Positions 49,485-56,510 of a stretch of DNA of 64,000 bases are shown here, one piece after another. The position numbers and the translations under genes were made by a program. The stretch's first letter is position 1. Every line of letters starts with the position of its first letter. The notes under the pieces were generated by a model. The model did no database searches. It had not been told where the DNA came from and saw only the letters and a program-made list of their open reading frames with translations. The stretch is from Eubacteriales Family XIII. Incertae Sedis bacterium (GTDB lineage Bacteria > Bacillota > Clostridia > Peptostreptococcales > Anaerovoracaceae): contig JAISKC010000051.1 in NCBI GenBank assembly GCA_031261345.1, positions 1-64,000 on the forward strand, written 5' to 3'.

Positions 49485-50762
49485 ATGGAAAAATACAAAG
49501 ATAGACTATTGGATAAAAAAATAAGCAATCTCGTAGATATATTACCTGCGATTGCTATTGATGGCGCGAAAGCCGTAGGAAAGACCGCCACCGCAAGTAG
49601 ATTTTCAAAATCCATCTTTGAATTTGATGATTTTGATGTACAAACTCTATATCAACTCAAACGTGATGAGATTCTCGGAGCGGCTACACCCGTACTCCTC
49701 GATGAGTGGCAACGAATTCCTGCGATTTGGGATGCAGTACGCCGTATTGTAGACAAAGATAGTAGACCGGCTCAATACATCCTGACGGGAAGTGCATATC
49801 CCCAAAATGCGAATATCCACAGTGGAGCAGGTCGAATCGTTCATCAGAAAATGTATCCTCTGTCATTGCAGGAGAGGTATCAATTTACGAACGGTATCAG
49901 TATTGGGGATTGTTTTTCGGGAAACATTGACAATGAAATGTTTATAGAAACGAAAATAACCTTTGATGATTACATAAAGGAAATACTCAGCTCCGGCTTT
50001 CCTGGCATATATTTTGGTGAAGAGCAGGCGAGAGACTATTACTTGAATGGATATATTGACAATATGATCTCAGTAGAAATGATTGAAAATAATTATCGAA
50101 TCAGGAAGCCCGATACCATGAAGAGATGGTTGAAATCATTTGCCGCCGCCACGGGCACAGAGACCGGCTACACTGAGATTTTGGATAATGCTACCGCAGG
50201 AGAACGCGACAAACCGTCCAAAACGACCACGGAAGTTTATAGAGAAATCCTACAAAACTTATGGCTTTTGGAGGAACTCCCTGCGTGGCTTCCGCTTGAG
50301 GGAAACTTCAACCGACTGAAGACCACGCCAAAGCATTATTTGGTAGATCCTGCAATTGAGGCAAAACTACTTGGACTTACCTATGACGAGATGGCGGCCA
50401 TGAAAGCGAAATCCCCCTTTGATAGAAAATATGGTTCCATAGTGGGAAGATTGTTCGAGTCGCTTATTTGTCTATCGCTCAGAACATATTCTTCCGCAAA
50501 CGACGCAGCTCTTTCATACTTAAAAACGCGAAATGGTGACCATGAGATAGATTTTATTGTTTCCAAGGGGAAAAAAGTTGTTGCTATAGAAGTAAAATTG
50601 TCAAATGATATTGCGGATAGTGATGCGAAGCATTTAAACTGGTTGGAGAACCAAATTGGTGAAAACCTTGTCTGCAAAATAATAGTATACACGGGAAAAT
50701 ACTTATATCGCAGGGAAAGCGATGCAGTCATAGCCTGTCCTGCCTGCTTGCTCGGTGCATAG
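49485..50762 (+). CDS. AAA ATPase with DUF4143 domain
   Basis: 425 residues. An AAA_14-type ATPase forms the N-terminal half (IAIDGAKAVGKTATASRFSK with Walker A GAKAVGKTA; LLDEWQRIP as Walker B; YILTGSAYP). The C-terminal DUF4143 half ends in a PD-(D/E)XK-like nuclease fold (GDHEIDFIVSKGKKVVAIEV, Asp...Glu-x-Lys). These proteins are frequent and mobile in gut bacteria; a role is not established. Three 23-bp repeats and a near-consensus promoter lie directly upstream, and a terminator follows. Confidence 0.88.
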   Translation: MEKYKDRLLDKKISNLVDILPAIAIDGAKAVGKTATASRFSKSIFEFDDFDVQTLYQLKRDEILGAATPVLLDEWQRIPAIWDAVRRIVDKDSRPAQYILTGSAYPQNANIHSGAGRIVHQKMYPLSLQERYQFTNGISIGDCFSGNIDNEMFIETKITFDDYIKEILSSGFPGIYFGEEQARDYYLNGYIDNMISVEMIENNYRIRKPDTMKRWLKSFAAATGTETGYTEILDNATAGERDKPSKTTTEVYREILQNLWLLEELPAWLPLEGNFNRLKTTPKHYLVDPAIEAKLLGLTYDEMAAMKAKSPFDRKYGSIVGRLFESLICLSLRTYSSANDAALSYLKTRNGDHEIDFIVSKGKKVVAIEVKLSNDIADSDAKHLNWLENQIGENLVCKIIVYTGKYLYRRESDAVIACPACLLGA

Positions 50763-50801
50763 AAAAAGAGCCCCCCGCTATTTGTGCGAGAGGCCCTTTT
50801 T
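50763..50801. terminator. Bidirectional rho-independent terminator
   Basis: AAAAAGAGCCCCCCGC pairs with GCGAGAGGCCCTTTTT around TATTTGT (approximate stem with bulges). It ends the AAA gene and, with the A run, would also serve the surface gene converging from the right. Confidence 0.7.
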
Positions 50802-50829
50802 AGGTTTGGGTTTCAATCCTAAGTTGTCA

Positions 50830-53800
50830 TTATGCTACGTATGCTTCTTCATGCTCCGAATCTCTGTCCGCTCTTCTGAGCTTGTAGACTACCAGTAATG
50901 CTATTTGGGCTATGAAGACTATGCCTACGAAGAACGTCCAGTTGTTGATCCATACCATCGGCTGATTGAGATTGTCGAGAATGAGCCAGACAATTGGCGT
51001 CAATATGCCAAAGATGACTGTCAAAGCCTTGAGTACCTTTCCGCGTTTGTTTTGAGCCTCATCATCGATATATCCATCATACAAATCATCCTCACGCCTT
51101 CTTTTCACGAGCGTTCCAGCGACGAGCAACACCGAAATAATAGTAGCGACCAAGGAAATGAGCAGGCTGAGCAAACTCCAAGCACCCTTTGTACCGAACC
51201 CACCGAGCGGCACGTTGCCATTGAGCACATCGATGATAGGATTGCCAGTCTGATTTGCGAACATCTCAGCATTTCTGTCAGTTCTATCAATAGGCGCACC
51301 GCCACGCTCAGTAGTCGTTCCCGTGGGTGCGTTGGTCTCCGGCTCCTGCGGCTCATCGATTTCCTCTTCTTCGTCAACGCCAACAGGAATCCTACTCCAC
51401 AACGCAGTGTAGGTAGCATCTCCCGTCACCTTCGCGGCTACAGTCTTGTCCCAACCGTCAAACTGCCAGCCGGCTTCTCCACTGGCCTCTGGTGCCGAGG
51501 GTGTGAGGTCCGAGTAATGAAGACCACCAGTAACCTGTTCAGCAAATGAGCCATGCGTGCCAGGCAGGTATTTCACCGTATAGTCGATAGGCTTCCAGAC
51601 AGCAGTGTAGGTAGCATTTCCTGTCACCTTAGAGGCGATAGTCTTGTCCCAGCCGTCAAACTGCCAACCGGCTTCTCCACTTGCCTCTGGTGCCGCAGGT
51701 GTGAGGTCCGAGTAATGAAGACCACCAGTAATCTGTTCGACAAATGAGCCATGCGCGCCAGGCAGATATTTCACCGTATAGGCGATAGGTTTCCAGACAG
51801 CGGTATAGGTAACGTTCTCTGTCACCTTAGAGGCGATGGTCTTGTCCCAGCCATCAAACTGCCAACCGGCCTCACCACTAGCCTCTGGTGCCGCAGGTGT
51901 ATTCGGAGCTACGCCGTCCGAGTAATGAAGACCACCAGTGATCTGCTCGGCAAACGTCCCATGTATGCCTGGCAGATATTTCACCGTATAGTTTATAGGC
52001 TTCCAGACTGCGTAGAGGTTGCTATTTGCAGCAGAAAATCTCACAGAATTTCCGGCATCGTATTTTGCATCAGCCTCTTTTGCATCTTTGTCAGAAGACC
52101 AACCGATGAACTTGTAGTGTGCCCTGCTATATCCCAAATCAGATTCCGAGGCAATGCTATATGGTGCAAGTCTTTGCACCTTCAAGTCGTTTAGTTTTGA
52201 ATCGCCTTTGTCAGTATTTCTATGATATGTAAGTTTCACCAAATCGTCAGGATCAACATAGCGCGCAACAAGCGTAGTATTTCCATATACATTTATATGC
52301 ATACCGGGATAAACGATGTCGGTATGAGAAACGCTTTCAGCATCAGTATATGTATAAGTCCAGCCCGCGAAGACCTTGCTGCCGTCCTTAAGCCCACTAC
52401 CATCAAGTACATTCACCTTAGTGCTGATGTCATAAGAAGAACCATCGACGGGAATGCTTCCCGAAGTCCCTGTACCTATATCGTAAGAAACACCAAATCC
52501 ATCAGTCTGCCACATTGCGACGAGTTCAACATTTTCAATGATTTCGTTTTCCCATGCATATTCTTGAGTCTTGCCATCTTTAGTCCAATACCACCCAAGG
52601 AAAGTACCGTAACCCTCTACCTGCTCGCCTATCTGATAGATATCTTCCGGAAATATCACCTTGCCATTCGCGGCTACGCCTACGGTGAGTTTTGGTTCGG
52701 AATCTGCAGCTTTGGCTTTGAAGTAAACATAATAGGCATTGGGTTCATATTTTGCATAAAGTTTGGCATCTAAAGCCGGATACAATTCATCTCCTGTGAA
52801 TCTTGTTTTATAATCATTGTCCCAATACCAATCGACAAAGTCATAACCGTCTGGAGGTGTTGGATTATACGCTGACAGATTGCCAATAGGCTCCTCGAAA
52901 GGTCCAGAAATAGAGCTTTGTACATTCGTTCCGCTTCCTGCATCAAGTTCTATTGTTACCTCCCTTCGATTGTAGAAACCATATGTGTAGGAATATTGGC
53001 TACCTCGAATAAACTCGGCGGGTTGCACCCAACCTCCTGAAGCGAAATTGCCTGGAGTTGGCGATAACCCATCGTAAACCAATTGAGCAATGTTGGTGAT
53101 GTTTGCACCATTGTACGTATAGTTCGAAACTACGTACGAAGGAGAATACTTATAAATTTTGCCGTTATACTTCAGATATTCTCTATGCGTACCATCGACC
53201 ATACTTGCGGTCTCATCGGACATATTCGCAATCTCTATTGAATTGTCATCAACATATTGTTCTTCCTCAACGGTAAGTTCTATATACGCAAGTCGTTCGT
53301 GTAAATATGCGGGATCAAAGGTCTTCAAGGCGGGCTTGACAATGATTGTTGTTGAGCCCGCACTTGTCGGGTTGATTGACGCAAAACCAATAGAGTATGG
53401 ATTAAAGTGTGTTTGGTGTGGCCCACTATTTTCATCTGTTTCATTGCCATAAAGCCAACCATAAAATTTCTGATTAGATGTATTTGTAACATCCTGAGGT
53501 TCGGGAAACATACCTGATACTACTTGCCCAAACTTTGCTTCAAAACTGTATGTGCCGGTTGCATAACTTTGCCCTTTATACACAAATGTCATTCCTGCAG
53601 GATATTGAAAATCAAATGTATACACGATTCGCTGATAATATACATTGATGATGGTGCTATCATTGCCAGCAATAGTTTTCCCAACCGCAGTTGTAAACCC
53701 ATAATTTGAGTATGTCAATTCAGAATTGGCACCCTTTGCCAAAGCATAATACCTTGTCGCAATACCCTCAACAGTGGTATCATCAAGAACTGTTCCTGCC

Positions 53801-55198
53801 GTCAAGGCCTCACCAATATCGTCCTTATCTACAACTTTGGAATATATGTACTGATAGTTTTGAGTATTTGCACCTGGATTTCCGTCAATATTTGCCTTCT
53901 CATTCCAGTATACAATGGTATATCCTACATCTATTGCTTCCCAAACAGCATAAAGATGCACATCGCCTGCCGATTCTGCAACTTGTACAGGATTGCTACT
54001 TTGGAAATAATCGATCGTAGATGAAACCTTATCAGGGTCATCACTTGACCAATACAAAAAACTGTAGCCACTGCGAGAGGGATCGGAGGTTGGCTTCGTT
54101 ACGTCGCCTAAATCAGTGACACCGTTGTAGATAATTTTTTCGGGTCTGATATAACTACCATTTGTATGGAAATAGACATTGTGTTCAAAAACAAGCTCTG
54201 GGGCAAGAATCAAATTGTCATTTATTTGTGTGCCTGAAGACCCAAAATAAAATTGGGTGACCGAATTTCCTTTTGGAAACCACTTGCCCGTTGTGACCAT
54301 TCCCGACGGAGCCGTGAATTTAAGGTTGGGATTTGTGATGGTATCACCCGCACTTGCGGTTTCGGAATGTATTATAAGTCCACTAGCATCTTCAAATTGC
54401 ACGAGGTATTTGTCGGAATAGACAGCGGTCAGGGTCAGGTTGTTATCTGTTACCAGTGCATCGGTGATCGGGGTGTTTTCAATTTGAAATGCCTCGTTTG
54501 GGTCAGTGGTGTCGGTTCCGTCGATGTACCAACCAAAGAAGGAAGTCTTACCTGGCGGAAGCTCAGGTATTTTCGGCTCATGAACGGTTTCACCATTCTC
54601 AACATAATAAGTCTTATATGTGCTACCATCGCCATTCTTGAAGGTAACGGTATAGACAGAATCTTCATTTACCAATGCTTCAATTAAATTGGTCGATTTT
54701 TGAAGCGAAGTGATTGCAGTAGAAAAAGCTCGCTCGCCTTCCTTGTCATAGTGAGCAGAGCGAGCGTGGGCCTGACCCGACCTGTGCTGGGACGCACCAT
54801 CAGGTGAGTCGCAGTGAATCCAGTCCTCATTGCTGCTAATAGATTCCGGCTCAGAGGCCGGAATGACAGAGTTTGGTGCTGGAATAACAGAACTGTTGTC
54901 CGTTTCACTGTCATTGCGGGCTTGACCCGCAATCCAGCCCTTGTCGCCATTTGTGGAAAAAGCTCGCGAGTCCGGAAGGACAGCCTCATCGGGGTTGTCG
55001 GAACCGGACATTTGCCCTTCAGCTACTTGCTCGGAGAGCACCCCCCCCCCTGACATTTTCTTCCAATTCGTCTGTCGCCATCGCAAACTGCGGTACTATC
55101 GCCATTGTCAGCATCACCAGTGTCAGCAATACAGCCGACACTCGCCTCCCAAATGGCTTTCTCGCATTACCATTACTATAGTTGCTATTGTTCCTCAT
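50830..55198 (-). CDS. Phase-variable InlB/Listeria-Bacteroides repeat surface protein, out of frame at a G10 tract
   Basis: The ATG at 55198 (behind AAAGGGGAAA) opens a signal peptide (RRVSAVLLTLVMLTMAIVPQ), but at the ten-G run 55041-55050 this frame passes into 59 codons and a stop. The long frame picks up one nucleotide later; nine or twelve G would join them into about 1455 residues. The body holds many Flg_new/InlB B-type repeats (VTFKNGDGSTYKTYYV, FFGWYIDGTD), three near-identical 66-70-residue repeats (YTVKYLPG...GLHYSD...GWQFDGWDKT) and three C-terminal membrane segments after VPLGGFGTKGAW. An in-frame ATG at 55086 would lack the signal peptide. The reading as a phase-variable adhesin-like protein is inference; a base-count error is the alternative. 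Confidence 0.8.
51395..52000 (-). repeat. Three near-identical tandem repeats in surface gene
   Basis: Units of 198, 198 and 210 bp, each starting YTVKYLPG and ending YTAVWKPI or a close variant. DNA identity is very high, so they can recombine and change number in steps that keep the frame. The 12 extra bases lie in the N-terminal-most unit. Confidence 0.88.
54755..54975 (-). repeat. Cluster of in-frame palindromic repeat modules
   Basis: Same modules as at 3053-3210, in the same order: the composite block coding HCDSPDGASQHRSGQA (about 54770-54826), TTCCGGCTCAGAGGCCGGAA (54843-54862) and ATTGCGGG-CTTGA-CCCGCAAT (about 54913-54933). All are read through in the surface-protein frame right behind the G10 tract. 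Confidence 0.85.
55041..55050 (-). repeat. G10 homopolymer tract (OFF frame)
   Basis: Ten consecutive G on the coding strand, starting 148 nt after the ATG at 55198. With ten, the signal-peptide frame meets TGA at 55019-55021. With nine or twelve it joins the long surface-protein frame. Confidence 0.9.
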
Positions 55199-55365
55199 TG
55201 TTTCCCCTTTCGTACTATTATATATTACTATCTATATACCACCTAAAGACATCCATAAATCGCCCTCAGATTTAGTATCTGCATTATCTGTCACAATTAC
55301 CGTCAGTGCTTCTAGTGGAAAAAGCTCGCTCGCCATTTTTGACAGATTTATCCCTTTCCTTGTCA

Positions 55366-55432
55366 TTGCGGGCCTGACCCGACCTGTGCTGGGACGCACC
55401 ATCAGGTGAGTCGCAGTGAATCCAGTCCTTGT
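55366..55432. repeat. Composite palindromic module in the upstream region of the surface gene
   Basis: CATTGCGGGCCTGACCCG followed by the same block as at 3098 and 54770, and AATCCAGTCC at the end. It lies between the surface gene start (55198) and the shared upstream element (55489-55521), so it may lengthen the leader. The gap 55199-55803 holds this module, the shared element and the promoter at 55696; I see no gene in it. Confidence 0.8.
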
Positions 55433-55488
55433 CACTGTCAGTAGATTGCTCCTCAGCCGCAATTTCTTACAAACTGACATCTTATATA

Positions 55489-55521
55489 TTATTTATACCC
55501 AATAATTATGAGTTTAAACCT
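55489..55521 (-). promoter_or_regulatory. Upstream element shared by the two surface genes (second copy)
   Basis: Matches 3481-3513 at about 25 of 33 positions, with the blocks TATACCCAAT and GTTTAAAC. It is about 290 nt from the start codon here, against 90 nt in the left gene; the inserted module at 55366 explains part of the difference. Confidence 0.5.
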
Positions 55522-55695
55522 AAAAAAGCAAAAAATATCGAATTTTACTCATTCTTTACAATATCAAATTGTCAGCTGAACCCCAGTTGTCCCCAAATAT
55601 TGCATCACTATAAGTAAAGAGCCACAAAAAAACAAATGTACTGTATCAAAAAGAATATTAAAAAAAATTACTCAGAAGTTCTTTCGATTAGGCTT

Positions 55696-55724
55696 GACAA
55701 GATATAAATATCATGGTAATATTT
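55696..55724 (+). promoter_or_regulatory. Promoter of the retropepsin pair
   Basis: TTGACA, a 17-nt spacer and TAATAT, 80 nt before the first gene of the pair. Only one base of the -10 box departs from consensus. Confidence 0.7.
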
Positions 55725-55803
55725 CTCAGTAATAGAAAATTATTTTAAAGCGGTGGTCATTGCGATAGCTTACATATGAGAATATACTGAGGGGGATTAC
55801 AAT

Positions 55804-56070
55804 ATGCGACAAAAAAGTTTTAGATGGGCAAGGGTGAATCAAATGTTTCAAGACATGGAGACTGTCAACCAAAAATATTCCGGACAATGGGTGTTTCTGA
55901 TCAACTGCGTGGAGGAAACCAATGGTTCTGTTGTTGGTGGTGAAGTAGTATTGCACAATGAAAATCGCGAAGCCGTACTGCAAAAGATGCCAAAATATGA
56001 ACACGAAAAGAGCTTGACTCTATTCAGATACGCAGGAGACATTCCAAAAGATGTTCACGTGATTCTATGA
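55804..56070 (+). CDS. Small protein paired with aspartic protease, DUF5678-like
   Basis: 88 residues. NQKYSGQWVFLINC, then VVGGEVVLHNENREAVLQKM resembles the small DUF5678-type domain (a W-V-A-L core with a later AxxK-type helix). GAGGGGG precedes the ATG. The gene overlaps the protease gene by 4 nt, so the two are made together. The function is unknown. Confidence 0.65.
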   Translation: MRQKSFRWARVNQMFQDMETVNQKYSGQWVFLINCVEETNGSVVGGEVVLHNENREAVLQKMPKYEHEKSLTLFRYAGDIPKDVHVIL

Positions 56071-56480
56071 AAAGTATCCGTTTAGAATTGAATCTCAATA
56101 CCGGAATTCCAATGGCATATATGAATATTTGGGACAGAAAAAAACAGGACTTTTCACTTATGTATTTGGTAGTGGATACGGGAGCAAGCGTCACAACGTT
56201 ATCAAAGGATTTGCTTCAGCTAGCCGGACACATGATGCCGAACTCTAATAAAAAGAAAATAACTACAGCCAGCGGCGTAGAATTTGTCGATGAAATCATT
56301 CTTGACAAAATCAAACTGGGTGGACTTGAAATGAGCAATATACCAGTATATGCCCACACTTTTCCCGAAGAAAGTTTTTCATCCGGTGTCATAGGTATGA
56401 ATATCCTATCCTGCTTCAATTTAGAGTTTTTATTTGACTCCAATGAACTAATATTGTCATACGAAAATGATGCGGCATGA
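56067..56480 (+). CDS. Retropepsin-like aspartic protease
   Basis: 137 residues, the size of a single retropepsin unit. LVVDTGASVTTLSKDLL is the active-site D-T/S-G motif, and GVIGMNILSCFNLEFLF matches the conserved Gly-x-Asn/Asp-hydrophobic end of the fold. Such single-domain proteases act as dimers; substrates in bacteria are unknown. It has no signal peptide. Confidence 0.82.
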   Translation: MKSIRLELNLNTGIPMAYMNIWDRKKQDFSLMYLVVDTGASVTTLSKDLLQLAGHMMPNSNKKKITTASGVEFVDEIILDKIKLGGLEMSNIPVYAHTFPEESFSSGVIGMNILSCFNLEFLFDSNELILSYENDAA

Positions 56481-56510
56481 AATAGCATAGCGTCGTAGAT
56501 TTGTGCTCAA

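Follow-up and report, generated by a model that had tools for sequence, protein, structure and literature searches.

The 64,000-nucleotide stretch analysed here (the window) carries on its minus strand a homopolymer of ten G at positions 55041–55050 (C10 on the plus strand), placed between two reading frames. Upstream of it, a frame opening at the ATG at 55198 (55051–55198), with a Shine-Dalgarno-like AAAGGGG (55204–55210) five bases 5′ of the start codon, encodes MRNNSNYSNGNARKPFGRRVSAVLLTLVMLTMAIVPQFAMA and then TDELEENV up to the tract. We called this a signal peptide from its basic n-region, hydrophobic core and A-x-A end, without a predictor, and the same signal peptide is common to the sister genes described below. 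At the present tract length this frame reads MRNNSNYSNGNARKPFGRRVSAVLLTLVMLTMAIVPQFAMA-TDELEENVRGGGALRASS* and stops six codons past the G10. A second frame (50830–55086, minus strand), uninterrupted over 1,418 codons, contains a surface-protein body of ~1,400 codons (50830–55040). The two frames are one base apart, and would be joined at nine G (or six, or twelve) into a single protein of 1,455 residues. Reading of the frames thus bears out the initial annotation, which had described the G10, a strong ribosome site at the ATG at 55198, a one-nucleotide offset between signal frame and body, and a single protein of about 1455 residues at nine or twelve G. We regard the tract as a putative slippage switch that is OFF at its present length. 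No Rfam families were found within positions 50000–56500.

A start codon within the body frame was also considered. The initial annotation had pointed to a signal-less ATG at 55086, which was a misreading: the codon there is a TTG, the first of the listed open reading frame, and the sole ATG of the body frame 5′ of the tract lies at 55056. Since the ATG corresponding to 55056 is absent from several sister genes (for example gaaaataccaat-G and gattcttccaat-G), and since the resulting protein would be signal-less, an internal start at 55056 or 55086 was ruled out.

The body contains Listeria-Bacteroides/InlB B-repeats (PF09479, PF18998) and has several hydrophobic segments at its C-terminus, where no LPXTG sorting motif was found. 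From the signal peptide, the repeats and the C-terminal hydrophobic anchor, we infer that the protein is exposed at the surface. Used as a query, the body matched 60 stretches within its own genome, and no relatives were found in the genome-contig and viral-contig collections. Comparison with segments of sister genes gave dN/dS values of 0.18–0.30 at a dS of ~1, which argues that the body has been maintained as a protein and shows, to the extent that aligned paralogues can, that it is under purifying selection; such paralogue ratios may partly record selection that predates the switching of the gene. On the 3′ side of the tract, positions 54709–54930 (minus strand) form a linker built from dispersed repeats that are read in frame as WIAGQARND, VIPASEPES and WIHCDSPDGASQHRSGQA, and these motifs recur 3′ of the tracts in sister genes. 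Dispersed repeats lie both in this in-frame linker and 5′ of the gene (55305–55460). Repeat elements occupy, in frame, the post-tract linker of most sister genes, reminiscent of the Rickettsia palindromic elements inserted in open reading frames.

The window holds a second G10 at 3235–3244 (minus strand) with the same anatomy. Here the signal peptide from the ATG at 3391 continues through the tract into the body, which remains open until the gene is truncated at the contig end (1–3391, minus strand); this copy is therefore in frame, or ON. The initial annotation had proposed tract-slippage phase variation from the single locus at 55041–55050, overlooking both this ON tract and the genome-wide system to which the two belong. 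The proposal itself gains support from the recurrence and the mixed states described below.

To place the tract in its genomic context, we counted G runs on both strands of the whole assembly, a fragmented draft of 2.42 Mb in 91 contigs that often end near repeated 5′ modules. The genome contains 19 G7, 17 G8, 29 G9, 11 G10 and 2 G11 runs, that is, 59 runs of at least eight G and 42 of at least nine. Within the window, run counts drop five- to eightfold with each added base (ratio ~0.13–0.21); with this decay and 19 G7 runs, about one G9 or fewer would be expected, against the 29 observed. Each of the 59 runs of at least eight G was read in its sequence context and classed by a fixed rule: a hydrophobic, signal-like segment had to lie either ahead of the tract or where the body begins, and the body had to span at least 150 codons. 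The rule was satisfied by 39 of the 59, compared with 145 of 1,045 G3–G4 runs in the window (14%; P ~1e-18), and the G3–G4 runs caught by it were mostly in frame. Long homopolymers early in a reading frame are thus far more frequent than chance would give. Two layouts account for the 39 genes: signal peptide-tract-body in 28, with the tract 96–226 nt from the start, and leader-tract-signal peptide-body in 11, with the tract at 31–62 nt. Three further loci (L018, L040, L026) fit by eye but are cut by a contig end or lie beyond the distance limit.

Other tract-gated bodies carry BspA-type leucine-rich repeats (LRR_5), a putative adhesive domain (pAdhesive_6), beta-helix repeats or Ig-like domains, while several have no Pfam match; bodies of more than 1,000 codons remain open. 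Loss of mismatch repair was considered as a cause of slippage and rejected as far as MutL is concerned, the only component looked for: MutL is encoded in the genome, and slippage is therefore not favoured by its loss. Two G9 runs were noted in genes of another kind. One lies in frame inside an HsdS gene (type I restriction specificity, PF01420; L012:2520–3632, minus strand), possibly a phase-variable specificity subunit, and the other (L031:3046–3054) close to the 3′ terminus of what looks, by inspection alone, like the gene of a GntR/MocR-type regulator.

Nine of the 39 tract genes read through and 30 are OFF. The tract length required for read-through varies, being nine in some genes, ten in others and eight or 11 in a few, and frame offsets of 0, +1 and −1 all occur among sister genes. 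Among signal peptide-tract-body genes, four of 28 are ON, compared with a mean of 9.7 when tract lengths were shuffled, four or fewer being reached in 1% of shufflings (P 0.01). The leader-tract-signal peptide-body genes show no such bias (5/11 ON), and the two layouts pooled are not significant (P 0.09). Sister genes are not independent, and the choice of start codon is uncertain in the second layout; these figures therefore only hint that the OFF state is favoured. Near-identical 5′ ends were found with unlike tracts: L001 (G10, OFF) and L017 (G9, ON) are 99.3% identical over 142 nt, L004 (G10, ON) and L038 (G9, OFF) 96%, L003 (G11) and L029 (G9) 98%, and L005 (G10) and L079 (G8) 92.5%. The tracts thus change faster than their flanks, a comparison that is drawn between sister loci of one genome and not between alleles of one locus.

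These differences bear on the possibility of programmed slippage by RNA polymerase (or the ribosome), in which a constant DNA tract would yield a fixed fraction of full-length product, as the many genes out of frame in the assembly and the predominance of G9 might suggest. Because the required lengths are mixed, a single programmed frameshift cannot account for all genes; offsets are not conserved across sisters, some genes are already in frame, and it is the DNA tract itself that differs between near-identical 5′ ends. We consider this explanation unlikely; RNA slippage could nonetheless contribute weak expression when a cell is OFF. A sequencing or assembly error, with a real tract of nine G and an intact gene, was raised in the initial annotation as a base-count error. 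Homopolymers are error-prone, tract lengths in databases can be wrong (PMC9187656), the tract at 55041–55050 comes without a read check, and any single length may be off by one. Error cannot, however, account for ~40 long G runs that share one anatomical position or for the excess at nine and ten, and signal peptide-tract-body genes are in frame more rarely than shuffling of the lengths predicts, the opposite of what intact genes with random count errors would give; for the phenomenon as a whole we think it very improbable. That the tracts are fixed frameshifts in decaying pseudogenes agrees with most copies being out of frame, yet is scarcely credible given open bodies of more than 1,000 codons, the dN/dS of the window body and the in-frame sister copies.

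Some tracts fall into a further layout, in which a short leader frame and the tract precede a terminator-like hairpin and a signal-peptide gene. It was seen at L011 (minus-strand G10), L015:3079–3087 and L074 (G8), and in a related genome (G041, described below) at L189, L284–L287, L283 and L288, with tracts ranging from G8 to G12. In five G041 copies, the leader stops upstream of the hairpin in two of the tract phases, at about +20 and +34, and reads across it in the remaining one. These loci are candidate phase-variable attenuators, by prediction only. Immediately 5′ of the tract, many leader-type loci in three genomes carry GAAC-N4-GTTC (L001:131–152, L017, L028, L080, L084, L011 and L015 in the present genome; L269, L272, L273, L274 and L276 in G014; L283 and L292 in G041). 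This motif is the Gram-positive LexA/SOS box core; it may act as an operator, form an RNA hairpin or merely be conserved leader sequence.

The nearest named matches of ValS are the Family XIII metagenome-assembled genomes (MAGs) Hs463_bin135 (71%; G041), Hs463_bin55 (69%) and Gx481_bin172 (67%; G043), whose names presumably derive from termite-gut collections. Of 99 family genomes, the majority hold between zero and two runs of at least nine G, and a few hold more than 20. In Hs463_bin135, the signal peptide-tract-body layout occurs with tracts of G9, G11 and G12. In Gx481_bin172, a G9 tract (G13 in one case) gates each of 13 type IV pilin-like genes, which consist of a conserved short leader (MRTIETAKSVK, for instance), the tract, and a body bearing the prepilin motif GFTLVEVIVVIVIIAILAAIG (L203, L204, L209, L214, L217, two at L225, L227, L233, L234, L237, L239 and L240). 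All 13 pilin bodies are out of frame with their leaders (P 0.005 against an expectation of one third). Two other genomes, G006 and G024, have many long G runs, yet these are mostly unlike the tract-gating plan; a high run count alone is therefore no evidence. The runs of G014 are mixed, some lying at contig ends. In G113, a further genome of the family, the flanking sequence caatatcttcca-G9-cacgctgaatta recurs around many G9 tracts (L299–L318) that precede reading frames, and at L314 the frame after the G9 reaches a prepilin-like motif.

Phase variation of a surface-protein repertoire by replication slippage is the best supported explanation, because the arrangement recurs ~40 times, lengths and states are mixed, sister 5′ ends occur in opposite states and the plan recurs in related MAGs. 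We judge it highly probable on the observed tract, frames, genome-wide recurrence, differing lengths between near-identical 5′ ends and selection on the body. At the window gene, a ribosome site and signal peptide lie 5′ of the G10 and a large, putatively membrane-anchored repeat protein 3′ of it. Slippage of DNA polymerase would gain or lose G in the tract; nine (or 12) would fuse the signal peptide to the body, other lengths would give a short dead-end peptide, and the window would carry an OFF allele. With the window gene among ~40 built alike, a population would be an ever-changing, mostly OFF mix of giant surface proteins. That tract length changes within a population and that expression tracks the frame are inferred, as is the benefit, which could be evasion of phage, host immunity or predators, or altered adhesion. 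The mostly OFF bias would also fit a use of the OFF frame that is not yet understood.

The best-known poly-G contingency loci are those of a few Gram-negative pathogens. In sortase-dependent pilus genes of Bifidobacterium breve (bbr_0113 and bbr_1889), a Gram-positive gut bacterium, a G tract likewise splits signal-peptide and body frames and its length sets their fusion, replication slippage having been demonstrated experimentally (PMC9187656). Those genes belong to two LPXTG pilin operons of an actinobacterium, whereas here ~40 dispersed Clostridia genes encode large InlB-repeat, LRR and adhesive-domain proteins, the window protein lacking LPXTG. Campylobacter jejuni has 18–39 predicted poly-G loci per genome, which similarly carry tracts inside reading frames that set ON and OFF states through the frame (PMC8355987, PMC4965091); they are mainly glycan, capsule and flagellar loci in a species without functional mismatch repair, unlike the giant secreted proteins of a genome that encodes MutL. 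The B. breve pilus genes are thus closest in anatomy and Campylobacter closest in scale. The leader-tract-terminator layout resembles the pil1 attenuator of Streptococcus gallolyticus, in which a short leader with a tract of GCAGA repeats lies upstream of a terminator hairpin, itself followed by a surface gene (PMC3894217), but uses a homopolymer in place of a 5-bp repeat; the architecture of the window gene differs from pil1. In the literature searched, from which most subscription journals were excluded, no poly-G contingency loci in Clostridia were found. The mechanism itself is known; what appears new, within that scope, is the type of host, how many loci there are and what kind of protein they target.

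Tract-gated genes are an annotation hazard, as they get called signal-less or broken, and strain-level metagenomics blind to homopolymer length would miss a major source of surface variation. We also put forward, tentatively and knowing that it may well prove wrong, that poly-G slippage is a main control of the exported proteome in this Family XIII lineage, through three layouts (signal peptide-tract-body; leader-tract-signal peptide, including the pilin arrays of the related MAG; and the leader-tract-terminator-gene attenuator), with selection keeping most copies OFF and a small subset expressed per cell. On the main reading alone, an uncultured Clostridia genome would hold a Campylobacter-like number of poly-G loci, nearly all on exported proteins, and, if this is true, phase-variable surfaces are a strategy also beyond the groups in which they are known.
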